The notes beneath the pieces were generated by a model that did not search any database, had not been told where the DNA came from, and saw only the letters and a list, made by a program, of their open reading frames with translations. Below, piece after piece: positions 2,476 to 24,981 of a DNA stretch of 27,503 bases. The translations under genes were made by a program, and so were the position numbers. This stretch comes from a virus: the IMG/VR virus record IMGVR_UViG_3300032287_001439, positions 1 through 27,503 of that record; one strand, given 5' to 3'. Within the stretch, counting starts at the first letter, position 1. The number at the start of each line of letters is the position of its first letter.

Positions 2476-2967
2476 TCAGAATACAAATTCAATGATAGAG
2501 GTGAATGGTGGTGCTTGTGTGAATGTTACGTTACCAGCGGAAATGGTATATGTATTTTGATTTTGATACACACCATTGATGTAAATAAGACTTGGCACAA
2601 AGGAAACAGCAAACACAGTCTGTGTGCCAGTTCCAGTTGCATTGCTGAAAAGATTGCCAGTCGAACCAGGGAAAGCATTGCCGTTCAGCGAGGTATAGAC
2701 CACCGTGCCGTTCTTATTTTGAACTTGAATGGAGTAATTGCCATTGGTGTAAATGCGTGATGGTGTGCCTTGGTAGACTGGATAACCCCCACTTGTGCGG
2801 ATGGGTTGGACAGCAGTGATCGTTAGTGCTGAATCCCAATAGGCAACAATTGGGTTGGTGATCGGGTTTAGGTTGACAGTGCCAATCCAGATGTAACCAT
2901 CATCAAGCGGCTGTCCATCAGCATCCGCAAACGCTGGGTATGGTGGTTCTACTGATAGTGCGGACAT
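2476..2967 (-). CDS. P22 tailspike head-binding domain protein (adaptor)
   Basis: A 163-residue protein. Residues 8-95 match the P22 tailspike N-terminal head-binding family: YPAFADADGQPLDDGYIWIG, then NPIVAYWDSALTITAVQPIRT, GGYPVYQGTPSRIYT and YSIQVQNKNGTVVY. In P22 this domain attaches the tailspike to the tail machine. Residues about 105-163 form a second small beta module (PSLIYINGVYQNQNTYTIS, then FTQAPPFTSIIEF) seen in many phage fibre proteins. Unlike P22, the protein ends here without a beta-helix; the beta-helix is encoded two genes downstream. It is probably an adaptor linking the tail to separate fibre and spike subunits. The start ATG 2967 is preceded by AGGAG. Confidence 0.85.
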   Translation of the reverse strand: MSALSVEPPYPAFADADGQPLDDGYIWIGTVNLNPITNPIVAYWDSALTITAVQPIRTSGGYPVYQGTPSRIYTNGNYSIQVQNKNGTVVYTSLNGNAFPGSTGNLFSNATGTGTQTVFAVSFVPSLIYINGVYQNQNTYTISAGNVTFTQAPPFTSIIEFVF

Positions 2968-2986
2968 TTATTTATTCTCCTATATA

Positions 2987-4933
2987 TCAAGGTTGACCTG
3001 CTCTACGCTTGAGTAGTTCTTCCATTGCCTTGACTGCGTTTTCTTTGTTGACGCCACGCAGATTCTCTGCCTTTTGAGCAAGCAAATCAAATGCCCTGCT
3101 TGCAACATTTCCCCTTGCAATATCAACACCAGTCTGCATGGCTTCTGCTACTTGGCCTTTTAAAGAGGTCTGTGCCGCCGCACCAAACATACGATCAAGT
3201 TCATTGACAAAAATCAATTGGTTAATAACATCATCATCAATCTTCATGCCATATTTTGTGGCAGTCTGATTGGCTTTGTCTAGGGCATCAATTAGATTTG
3301 CTCTTGTGCCATAGTTGCTTGTTAGCTTACGCATTGCCACACCCAATGCTTTTTCTGCATTTGGTGAGTCAAAGTTAATCTGTGTACCAGCAGATTTTTG
3401 TAAATCATCTAATGCAGAAATGGTGTCCGAGTACTTGGTATTAGCAGCTTTGTAATCAGGGAAACTTTCACCAAGAGTATCATTCAAATTTTTGCGTAGA
3501 GTTTTGAGTGTTCTTTCGGCTTGTGCCGTGAGTGGATTGGCAAGATTTCTTTTGCCATAGTCAACTTGCGTATCAATGAAACGCTTGGCTGTATGAAGGC
3601 CAAAAGCATCGGGTACATTGGTTGCGCTGAGACGCTCTAAAACCGAGTTTAGGACTCGCTGGGCTTGTCGGTCACCCTGTATATCAGAACCCTGTAAATT
3701 GGCCTTGGCAATGCCGTTTGCGTCCAGTTCAACCTTTACACCCAAAGCACCAAGATCATCAATAAATGAATTTATGGCTGGGTCAAAATCAACTCTTTGC
3801 CCACGTAGTTGAGTGTTGGCGACTTGGTTAATGGCAGTGCCAGCTTCTTTATTTGCGCCTGTTATGTATTTAATTCGTGACTCAACAGTGTCACCAAGAA
3901 TGTCTGCCGCACGATTTGTGGCACGAAACTTCTCACTCTTTTCACCCATCTTGAAGATGTTTAGCATCTTGGTCATGGCTTGACGATCAGTATCAGATGC
4001 GGCCTTGATACTAGCAATAGTGCCATCTTTCCAACCCTGCTTGATGGCATCAGCCGCTTGATTGTCTGGAACTACTTGTGTGCCAGCAACTCTAAAATTT
4101 ACAACATCAACCGAGTCTGGACTTTGTGTTATGACTTTTTTTATGGTCTCTGCTTGTTGTGGTGATATTTTTTCACCAACTGTTGCTGTAATGCTTTGTA
4201 CAGATTCTTTAAAAGTTGGTTCGACTGCTTCTTTAATTTCAGCACCTGCTGGCGCAACTTTCTTGGCAACTTGTTGAGTTACTGATTTAACCATTGACGG
4301 GATTGAGGGTGCAACTGCCCCGCCAATAGTTGCGGCAATCTGACCCACAGGGCCAGCCCCTGCTTCTTTTGCAATAGCACCAGCCGCACCACCTGTTGCA
4401 CCAGTAAGCGTTTGAAACCCTGGTGTGGTTGCCATCATGCGCCCAACTTCACGGGTAACTGGCCCTGCGGCGGCAGATTCCACTGCTTTGCCTAATGCAA
4501 CTCCACCAGCACCACCACTAGCACCAGCGGCTGTGGTTTGCACGATTCTCTCTGCGGCGGTCCGAGGTTGGGCAACACCCACACGTGTCAACAAATCTTC
4601 AAGCGCATCGGTTGGCAAAGTATATTTTGTGCCGAATAAACTATTAATTGACCCAACAACAGGGTCAGCAACCAAACCAGCAAGGGTAGCCGCACCAGCA
4701 CCAGCAATAGCACCTGGAATAGCCCCAATACCAGCAAAAGGCGCACCCATAGCCGCACCAAGCATTGCGCCAGCCGCAGGCAAAGCTACGCCCCTAGTTG
4801 CCGCCCCAGCAAGGCCTGTTGCCGTTGTTGATGGCTCTGGTTTCTGTGTGGCAAGCCATTGTTCTGGCGACATTGAGGCCGCAGAAGGTGCGGCTTGACT
4901 AGTCTGAGATGCCAACCATTCTTCTGGACTCAT
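2987..4933 (-). CDS. Internal virion / DNA ejection protein (gp16-like)
   Basis: 648 residues from ATG 4933, which overlaps the upstream stop as ATGA; a longer start at 4969 would add 12 residues without that coupling. The N-terminus carries the peptide MSPEEWLASQ and repeats it 20 residues later as MSPEQWLATQ. A long Gly/Ala-rich hydrophobic stretch follows (about residues 40-100, e.g. GAMLGAAMGAPFAGIGAIPG), which could insert into membranes. The rest is helical and rich in Q, A, K and D. Length, composition and position as the last of three ejection-type genes match the P22 gp16 class of proteins expelled into the host envelope during DNA entry. I see no lysozyme or transglycosylase motif. 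Confidence 0.7.
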   Translation of the reverse strand: MSPEEWLASQTSQAAPSAASMSPEQWLATQKPEPSTTATGLAGAATRGVALPAAGAMLGAAMGAPFAGIGAIPGAIAGAGAATLAGLVADPVVGSINSLFGTKYTLPTDALEDLLTRVGVAQPRTAAERIVQTTAAGASGGAGGVALGKAVESAAAGPVTREVGRMMATTPGFQTLTGATGGAAGAIAKEAGAGPVGQIAATIGGAVAPSIPSMVKSVTQQVAKKVAPAGAEIKEAVEPTFKESVQSITATVGEKISPQQAETIKKVITQSPDSVDVVNFRVAGTQVVPDNQAADAIKQGWKDGTIASIKAASDTDRQAMTKMLNIFKMGEKSEKFRATNRAADILGDTVESRIKYITGANKEAGTAINQVANTQLRGQRVDFDPAINSFIDDLGALGVKVELDANGIAKANLQGSDIQGDRQAQRVLNSVLERLSATNVPDAFGLHTAKRFIDTQVDYGKRNLANPLTAQAERTLKTLRKNLNDTLGESFPDYKAANTKYSDTISALDDLQKSAGTQINFDSPNAEKALGVAMRKLTSNYGTRANLIDALDKANQTATKYGMKIDDDVINQLIFVNELDRMFGAAAQTSLKGQVAEAMQTGVDIARGNVASRAFDLLAQKAENLRGVNKENAVKAMEELLKRRAGQP

Positions 4934-23814: not shown

Positions 23815-24580
23815 GGTATTTTCCTTCTACGATTTTTGCGAAATTGCTTGGTTTCAAAATCCACTCAAGATCGGCAGTAAATGCACGACCATCTTTGCTG
23901 TTGACTTTGCCAGTCAAAAATTTAGATTTGCCAATGTGTTGGAAAAACTCACCCCACCAGTTCAGTACATGGGCGGTCTCAATTTGTTTGTCCTGTGCAA
24001 GTTCTTCAGCAACTTCACGCCATCTTTGCCTGAGATAACCCTGTCTGGTTGCATTCCAAACCTCAACCTTCCGCAGGGTTGGTAACCATTGGTGATAGAG
24101 TTCAATGACCCCTTGATGCTGACAATCAGGAATTTTCAAACCCGCTGATTGCTCTGGTGCGCCATCAGGCGGACATATATATGTATCTTGTTTATTTGTT
24201 TCTAGTTTATAGTTTATAGTTTGCTTGGCGTTGGGTTGCGAGTCGGTTAGCGTTGGGTTACCCACTGGGTTCTTTTTGCGCCCACCCAAGCGACCATTAA
24301 CCCTGTTTTTCTCAGCCATCGCGTGATACTGCTGTATCAGGTCATCACATTTGGCATGAAACCATCCGTCCTCATGCTCAACAAACATATCTCGTAGGAC
24401 TTCGTTAACCACTTCGACCGCCATTCGCAACCTTTTGGCAACCCACTGGGTATCGATAGGTATTTTTTTTTCTGTGTCGTAATACATATCTAAAAGTCTG
24501 CGATATGCCAAATCCTCCTCATTAGATAGATGCGCTGTAGCGGCTCGATAGTCGCCAATGTTGAACTGGTAGTAATGCAT
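23801..24580 (-). CDS. DUF1376/YdaU-family replication protein
   Basis: 259 residues. Residues 1-90 are a clear DUF1376 (YdaU) domain: MHYYQFNIGDYRAATAHLSN, then EEDLAYRRLLDMYYDTEKKI and VEHEDGWFHAKCDDLIQQYH. A basic linker (NGRLGGRKKNPVG) follows, then a C-terminal domain (YHQWLPTLRKVEVWNATRQG and HVLNWWGEFFQHIGKSKFLT), as in phage primosome or replication-initiation proteins. It heads the replication/recombination part of the minus operon. Its start has no good Shine-Dalgarno and lies 8 bases after the T8 of a terminator-like RNA, suggesting control at this point. No helicase or helicase loader is visible in the window. Confidence 0.85.
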   Translation of the reverse strand: MHYYQFNIGDYRAATAHLSNEEDLAYRRLLDMYYDTEKKIPIDTQWVAKRLRMAVEVVNEVLRDMFVEHEDGWFHAKCDDLIQQYHAMAEKNRVNGRLGGRKKNPVGNPTLTDSQPNAKQTINYKLETNKQDTYICPPDGAPEQSAGLKIPDCQHQGVIELYHQWLPTLRKVEVWNATRQGYLRQRWREVAEELAQDKQIETAHVLNWWGEFFQHIGKSKFLTGKVNSKDGRAFTADLEWILKPSNFAKIVEGKYHGNH

Positions 24581-24588
24581 AAAAGCCC

Positions 24589-24668
24589 AAAAAAAAGGCT
24601 ATTCCTGAGGTCTCACCCTTGCGGATGTTGGCGGACTGGCACAGTACCAGCAGACTTCAGGAATAGCC
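24589..24668 (-). ncRNA. Structured RNA, C4 antisense-like, with intrinsic terminator
   Basis: On the minus strand the RNA starts GGCUAUUCCUGAAGUCU (24668-24652) and ends with AGACCUCAGGAAUAGCC (24613-24597), a 17-bp closing stem with one G-U pair, followed by U8 (24596-24589). Inside is a hairpin CUGGUACUGUGCCAG (24650-24636) and the segment CCGCCAACAUCCGCAAGGGU. This multi-stem layout and these words resemble the phage C4 antisense RNA class that controls antirepressor genes in P1 and P22; I could not run a covariance search. A 34-codon ORF (24599-24703) covers it and is probably a by-product. It lies between cro and the DUF1376 gene, so it may instead act in cis as an attenuator. Confidence 0.6.
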
Positions 24669-24704
24669 CAACTGTGAAACGCCGCCAAGCGTCTTTTATC
24701 CATT

Positions 24705-24863
24705 TTACTCCGTAAACCATTCGGGGCGCAAAACGCGCAATTGCCATAAACGCGCCGCTGGAACATTCTCTTTCCATTGGCTTATGGCTGGCTGGCTTAT
24801 GCCAAGCAACTTCGCCAAAGCCTTACAAGAACCTGCCAGTCGTAACGCATCCTTTTTTTTCAT
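24705..24863 (-). CDS. Cro-like repressor (52 aa)
   Basis: Translated by hand: 52 residues, MKKKDALRLAGSCKALAKLL then GISQPAISQWKENVPAARLW and QLRVLRPEWFTE. The helix-turn-helix (KALAKLLGISQPAISQWKE, residues 14-32) and overall shape match P22 Cro-type proteins (P22 Cro is 61 residues). The -10 TATAAT of its promoter ends only six bases before the ATG and there is no Shine-Dalgarno, so the mRNA is probably leaderless. It is divergent from the plus early operon, with three shared operator-like elements nearby as plausible targets. No larger CI-type repressor is next to it. An A8 run follows the start codon. Confidence 0.85.
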   Translation of the reverse strand: MKKKDALRLAGSCKALAKLLGISQPAISQWKENVPAARLWQLRVLRPEWFTE

Positions 24864-24868
24864 CTGCC

Positions 24869-24892
24869 AATTATAATTTAGCTTAAATAACC
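24869..24892 (-). promoter_or_regulatory. Minus promoter for cro operon with operator-like element
   Basis: Reading the minus strand, GGTTATTTAAGCT is followed by three bases and then TTATAATT. The -10 TATAAT is at 24875-24870. The -35 region is poor (AGTGTA at the 18-bp position), so the promoter may be weak or need activation. The same 24-base element recurs at both plus promoters: 20 of 24 bases match 24906-24929. Predicted transcription begins at or next to the cro ATG (24863). Confidence 0.6.
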
Positions 24893-24918
24893 CTACACTT
24901 TACACGGCTATTTAAGCT
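24880..24918. promoter_or_regulatory. Inverted operator pair in divergent control region
   Basis: AGCTTAAATA (24880-24889) and its exact inverse TATTTAAGCT (24909-24918) are separated by 19 bases, extending to AGCTTAAATARCC in both arms. Each copy sits in the -10/-35 spacer of one of the divergent promoters. A protein bound here would block both directions. The Cro-like protein at 24705-24863 is the natural candidate. Confidence 0.6.
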
Positions 24919-24981
24919 GGCTTATAATTCCGTCATCCCCCAGCGTTTTGCATAGGGTACTTTTTGGAGATACTTTTCATG
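24891..24981 (+). repeat. Promoter-leader module, copy 1 (copy 2 at 25973-26061)
   Basis: From CCCTACACTTTACA to the start codon this region aligns with 25973-26061 (CCCTGCACTTTACA onward): same -35, same operator-containing spacer, same TATAAT, and a leader hairpin of the form CCCNAGC-loop-GC-A-N-GGG in both, followed by a Shine-Dalgarno and ATG. This looks like duplication of a whole expression signal. Confidence 0.65.
24899..24928 (+). promoter_or_regulatory. Plus early promoter 1 (DUF932 operon)
   Basis: -35 TTTACA (24899-24904), an 18-base spacer containing GGCTATTTAAGCT, and a perfect -10 TATAAT (24923-24928). Transcription should start near 24935, giving a leader of about 45 bases with GGAG at 24966 before the DUF932 ATG at 24979. 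Confidence 0.75.

Follow-up and report, generated by a model that had tools for sequence, protein, structure and literature searches.

The window, which is the whole 27,503-nt stretch of IMG/VR virus record IMGVR_UViG_3300032287_001439, contains one structured RNA of ~106 nt at positions 24694–24589 of the minus strand, between a cro-like gene and a DUF1376 replication gene. The parts of the RNA, together with the neighbouring genes and signals, are as follows (A1 is the alignment of 55 sequences described below).

24705–24863, minus strand: cro-like gene, 52 aa, P22_Cro/YdaS fold (Pfam PF14549, E = 5.1e-13; PF15943, E = 5.8e-8; PHROG transcriptional regulator)
24702–24731, minus strand: promoter-like site read from the sequence (TTGCGC at 24731–24726, 3/6 matches; 18-nt spacer; TAAAAT at 24707–24702, 5/6 matches)
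24678–24693, minus strand: P0 hairpin, with loop L0 (UUGGCG) at 24688–24683; double changes in 4/5 pairs of A1
24671–24676, minus strand: strand S1 (CACAGU), pairing with the P2 loop L2 (pseudoknot 1); double changes in 6/6 pairs
24652–24669, minus strand: 5′ strand of P1, the putative terminator stem, directly adjoining the S1 region (folding, alignment and covariation)
24636–24650, minus strand: P2 hairpin, with loop L2 at 24646–24640; double changes in 4/4 pairs
24628–24633, minus strand: J23 (CGCCAA), pairing with L0 (pseudoknot 2); compensatory in 3/55 sequences of A1, with more cases in L416, L508 and L520
24614–24627, minus strand: P3 hairpin, with a GCAA tetraloop in the window (folding, alignment and covariation); stem sequence replaced in L528
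24596–24613, minus strand: 3′ strand of P1; double changes in 16/18 P1 pairs
24589–24596, minus strand: U8 tract, an intrinsic-terminator-like 3′ end; a run of ≥5 U in all real members but L301
23801–24580, minus strand: DUF1376 replication-type gene (PF07120, E = 1.4e-22), with its ATG 8 nt past U8

The best PHROG matches of the DUF1376 gene include primosomal, replication initiation and DnaD-like helicase loader proteins. The promoter-like site lies 7 nt ahead of P0, and its −10 box is overlapped by the stop codon of cro. It fell below the threshold of a generic promoter scan of the window (its −35 hexamer matching at three of six positions) and is supported by the family-wide enrichment of −10 and TTG (−35) signals described below. 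Between cro and a divergent DUF932 gene, a 24-nt inverted repeat (83%) was found at 24869–24929, overlapping a plus-strand promoter match (11/12); this is likely to be an operator region.

Folding of minus-strand positions 24669–24596 produced a closing stem, two internal hairpins and the CCGCCAACAUCCGCAAGGGU core, with a minimum free energy of −39.3 kcal/mol (z = −5.8; 0/200 shuffles equal). An earlier note on this DNA had described a 17-bp closing stem, one internal hairpin and the core; the fold confirms these, the stem consisting of 13 bp, an A·C mismatch and 4 bp, and adds a second internal hairpin. What that note had seen corresponds to the 3′ two thirds of the RNA, and it had overlooked the 5′ third with the promoter-like site, P0 and S1, although P0 and S1 pair into the core. 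Its observation of U8 followed 8 nt later by an ATG (24580–24578) also holds, as does the lack of a Shine-Dalgarno sequence before this ATG: the anti-SD energy of −2.4 kcal/mol equals the median of 2000 random 18-mers, and many other minus-strand genes of the window have energies of −4 to −9 kcal/mol. The U8 site was not listed by a generic terminator scan because the stem in the window encloses a three-way junction and the scan takes loops of 3–8 nt only.

The element had been labelled C4-like, and it does share with C4 (RF01695) a long closing stem that encloses two hairpins. A C4-type antisense RNA, being a phage-borne three-way junction of this shape, would explain the fold, but the covariance-model search that had been proposed for it, once run, left RF01695 without a match in the window with the threshold relaxed to E ≤ 10; phage P4, searched with that library as a positive control, gave a C4 match of 74.9 bits. 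The model built here for the present element (R1, see below) was in turn negative in P4, the C4 core differs, and the P4 copy of C4 has no U-tract and has other neighbours. Membership of the C4 family is thus excluded, and a C4-type mode of action is extremely improbable. Around the element (24450–24900), Rfam at E ≤ 10 yielded only a chance snoRNA match, elsewhere in the stretch. As had been remarked, the site has no antirepressor-type gene, the downstream gene being of the DUF1376/primosomal type. Of the two functions proposed at that time, processing into an antisense RNA that acts on a target elsewhere received no direct support, the complementary segments (P0 loop and S1) sitting in the same RNA. 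The other, an attenuator of the long minus-strand operon, is supported by the layout, namely an element with its own promoter-like site, a U-tract, a start codon within 16 nt and, in many phages, replication-type genes downstream.

A 19-nt core of the element was found in 69 IMG/VR stretches, ~10 of which were unrelated coding matches. Divergent copies were added by further patterns, resulting in 144 members (a T-run and stem being required), from which 83 distinct sequences were parsed; L031 was left out of the parse owing to too little 5′ sequence. The covariance model R1 was built from 55 aligned sequences including that of the window (A1), and matches the window at 24694–24589 with 105.5 bits. 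When the loci from the pattern scans were searched with R1, every member of a first set of 100 and 49 members of a second set of 65 contained exactly one copy, and 16 of the second set had none, which gives 149 loci with one copy per locus. In loci collected by protein rather than RNA, R1 was present in 54/80 with a KNWxKFQH-type replication gene and in 3/80 with a DUF1376 relative. The only named phage records carrying the element are MW202462 and MW202544. No copy was found in plasmids. R1 was likewise found in 0 of 10 genomes in a host search, a weak one in which 150 of 766–2532 first-look candidates were scored per genome. The L0/J23 pattern matched in 23 of 399 genomes of one order, with the element in none of the matches listed (judged by eye), and among the matches listed in a pattern scan of genome contigs none passed the element filter. 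No Rfam 15 family matches the element. A literature search extending mostly to titles and the beginnings of abstracts, and not to supplementary files, yielded no description of it, and the passages available from a 2025 review of phage sRNAs (PMC12197685) contain nothing of its kind. Judging from these sequence comparisons, R1 appears to be a new family within a known class of RNAs, that of leaders/attenuators or sRNAs.

Covariation supports a predicted R1 structure of four helices (P0, P1, P2 and P3) and two loop pseudoknots. In A1, 95.4% of the cells are paired compared with 77.0% in shuffles, and double-change cells number 445 compared with 139.8; sliding the partners by 1–3 columns lowers the paired cells to 34–45%. 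P1 comprises 18 positions and carries a mismatch at positions 9–10 in most members and at position 14 in the window. In pseudoknot 1, S1, which adjoins P1 without a linker (as seen in A1 and the S1/L2 parse), pairs with L2, and the complementarity is perfect over the whole loop in 28 of 41 distinct combinations (maximum of 13 in 10000 random deals). Most pairs of pseudoknot 2 are invariant in A1, with the compensated combination UUGGCA/UGCCAA occurring in L065, L079 and L314; outside A1, UUGACG/CGUCAA, UUGGUC/GACCAA and UGGGGA/UCCCCA were found in L508, L416 and L520, respectively. Seeming L0/J23 exceptions in a regular-expression tally were traced to the spacer or to unrelated sequence. L520 (751–890) has a second, identical copy of the 14-nt P0 hairpin immediately past the U-tract; the loop of this copy holds a GGGGAG ribosome site, and J23 is complementary to both copies.

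The R1 loci have a constant order of −10-like box, RNA, U-tract and start codon. When the upstream regions are anchored on P0, the TATAAT-like hexamer is mostly found 2–10 nt ahead of it; a −10 score of ≥6 was obtained in 90 of 117 distinct regions (~25 expected from shuffles) and a TTG-type −35 with ≥4 matches in 44 of them (~15 expected), so the RNA should start near P0. The U-run was counted in 142 loci with L0 and J23 motifs, irrespective of T-run or stem; three of these were chance matches, and 138 of the 139 real members have a run of ≥5 U. The exception, L301 (6544–6649), is a lone copy near a contig end with a truncated P1 and no run, the lower P1 half and the U-tract having been replaced, and represents either a natural terminator loss or an assembly chimera. 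A co-directional ORF of ≥40 aa starts ≤30 nt past the U-tract in 114/114 contexts (126 minus 12 with <160 nt downstream) and ≤16 nt past it in 113 of these. Because this leaves no room for a promoter, the downstream gene would hardly be transcribed except through the terminator. A GG lies ≤10 nt past the U-tract in 97/98 distinct ends, and anti-SD pairing across the family does not exceed the random level (median −2.4 kcal/mol).

Neighbouring genes were classified from short motifs, and the following counts are therefore approximate. In 59 of the 126 contexts, a C-terminal motif marks the upstream gene as Cro/YdaS-like; others are Cys-rich lipoprotein-like, RusA-like, HNH-like or of further types. 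Downstream, the 126 contexts comprise 51 KNWxKFQH replication genes, 19 of the DUF1376 type, 19 small genes, 11 endonuclease-like and 6 ParB-like genes, 2 replication initiation genes of the PEFW type and 6 others, with too little sequence in 12. Of 69 loci, 55 contain a replication-type protein cluster, whose start usually comes right after the RNA. The Cys-rich lipoprotein-like gene (49–82 aa), found directly upstream of R1 in at least 13 contexts (L092, L128, L298 and others), ends like ..TCCYGNNCNTNCY and has no Pfam match.

This arrangement bears on two other explanations. Since the element follows cro and ends in U8, it might do no more than terminate or insulate the cro transcript, its structure being kept for stability only; such a role, however, would call for neither two covarying pseudoknots nor an invariant junction and would leave the promoter-like site of the element without purpose, and the element is also located behind genes other than cro, so that we consider this reading very unlikely. 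The nutR and putR sites of lambdoid phages lie between cro and the replication genes, which matches the position of R1. An antitermination RNA of the put (HK022) type, modifying its own polymerase and having the terminal hairpin as the first terminator to be overcome, would also suit the highly conserved core, but put RNAs consist of a pair of simple hairpins and lack a U-tract, and this reading is quite unlikely.

Most DUF1376 phages lacking R1 have another conserved RNA, Rfam int-alpA (RF02996), in the interval from cro to the ATG. It was detected in 9/10 R1-less DUF1376 loci at E ≤ 0.5 (four above the Rfam cut-off) and, in a test covering 50 of the 80 DUF1376 loci, in 42/50 records at E ≤ 0.05 (18 above the cut-off), with none in the two records that carry R1. 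Among the R1 records tested (n = 49 after dropping L110, which is not a member), three contain int-alpA: in two, it precedes the replication gene and R1 is located further upstream with other genes between, and the third has it ahead of an HNH-like gene (judged by eye). Of 26 KNWxKFQH loci without R1, 16 are in records with int-alpA, and L520 combines R1 with a weak int-alpA match. Many copies (among L391–L453, e.g. L404:2410–2478) lie between cro and the replication gene with their own −10-like box. In L468 (reverse strand ~2900–4300; the L049 phage), the order is R1, HNH-like gene, int-alpA and replication gene; an endonuclease gene and a leader RNA may have entered this phage together, in one insertion.

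Like R1, int-alpA forms a three-way junction closed by P1, has a U-rich 3′ flank and a loop paired outside P1, and occupies in sister phages the same site after cro and before the replication gene, with its own −10. It differs in its core sequence, its lack of P0, its weaker U-run and its pseudoknot strand, which is 3′ of P1 rather than 5′; this strand covaries with the loop, forming 5–7 Watson–Crick pairs with it in 31/31 copies, compared with ≥5 in 26% of swapped pairs. The window element has no int-alpA model match (Rfam, 24450–24900, E ≤ 10), and int-alpA is thus the closest functional neighbour of R1, not a relative by model. The family reportedly originates from a 2017 paper, and our literature search retrieved one paper on it, which gives it only as a list entry. 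A third kind of leader precedes the replication gene in L511 (1380–1495; folding z = −7.2), with two hairpins bearing complementary 7-nt loops (GGACAAG/CUUGUCC), the second followed by U6, GGAG and ATG, and a fourth, different folded leader (z = −4.2) lies ahead of the replication gene in L515 (1390–1500); neither has an Rfam match. The exchange of unrelated knotted RNAs at one control point suggests that R1, int-alpA and the other leaders are functionally equivalent at this site.

In the lambda pR′–tR′ leader and in transcriptional riboswitches, a promoter, a short leader and a terminator directly precede the genes. R1 loci share this order at the level of signals (promoter, structured leader, U-tract, ORF), whereas any antiterminator protein or ligand would be hypothetical for R1. 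At about even probability, we favour the reading that the minus-strand operon headed by the replication gene has the element as its 5′ leader, acting in cis as a transcription attenuator. In this proposal, a sigma70-like promoter at the cro end would start the RNA at P0, and the emerging P0, S1, P2 and J23 could fold compactly, with both pseudoknots (S1:L2 and L0:J23) formed. This nascent fold would compete with the terminator stem: once the P1 3′ strand emerges, P1 would close and, together with U8, stop transcription just ahead of the start codon. If the pseudoknotted fold were stabilised, by a ligand, a protein, a ribosome at the cro stop codon or folding kinetics, the polymerase would pass into the replication genes and what follows.

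The competition is suggested by geometry and energy. An 18-bp A-form helix is ~50 Å long; because S1 sits without a linker at the base of the 18-bp P1 and L2 at its top, one molecule should, by this geometric estimate, be unable to form S1:L2 and the lower P1 half at the same time. The median energies of S1:L2, L0:J23 and lower P1 are −6.6, −7.6 and −14.6 kcal/mol, respectively, which suggests that the two pseudoknots and lower P1 are near balance, loop penalties being ignored. Termination, mutual exclusion and regulation are what we infer from the covariation, both pseudoknots, the −10/−35 enrichment, the U-run, the close co-directional ORF and the replication-type cluster. The presence of int-alpA, another pseudoknotted RNA, at the same site in sister phages and the single R1 copy per locus also speak for an attenuator. 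Against it stand the weak −35 of many members (3/6 in the window) and the fact that a promoter of its own and a U8 end would mark a trans-acting sRNA just as well. As the downstream genes vary (endonucleases, ParB-like and small genes), no single regulated function hints at a ligand.

Such an sRNA would have a ~106-nt folded body between its promoter and an Hfq-type U8 terminator and would act on host or phage mRNAs or proteins, with the downstream gene fed by leaky readthrough. The promoter and terminator signals and the very conserved core agree with this, and int-alpA, in the same niche, is typed as an sRNA by Rfam. Moreover, S1 and L0 of one copy can pair with L2 and J23 of another; if S1:L2 formed between two molecules, the RNA would be a multimer or a trans regulator. 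A dual form resembling IsrK (RF01394; Gifsy-1/P4) is included here: as described in parts of PMC4825925, IsrK has a phage promoter and occurs as a short RNA ending at a terminator and also as the 5′ portion of a readthrough mRNA, the latter being activated in trans. The window has no Rfam match to IsrK, and the IsrK operon differs in including an anti-repressor-like gene. A free sRNA gene would not need the ORF that follows the U-tract so closely in every context, and we regard a trans-acting sRNA as possible but somewhat unlikely.

There is also a more speculative reading, which we hold to be unlikely. Phages would use a set of unrelated, interchangeable pseudoknotted leaders (R1, int-alpA and at least one kissing-loop type, that of L511) as switches of replication operons, and R1 would perhaps be a sensor of copy number or multiplicity, its terminated short RNAs using P0/S1 to pair with L2/J23 of transcripts still being made from other phage copies and thereby shifting the terminator balance. 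The P0 repeat at the ribosome site of L520 suggests that J23 may reach the RBS as well.

R1 is thus an RNA family that is matched by no Rfam 15 model, has two covariation-backed pseudoknots and lies at a control point common to many environmental phages, and int-alpA gains from it a genomic context and a testable role. If the attenuator reading is true, entry into phage DNA replication would be gated by RNA folding, through modules that can be swapped.
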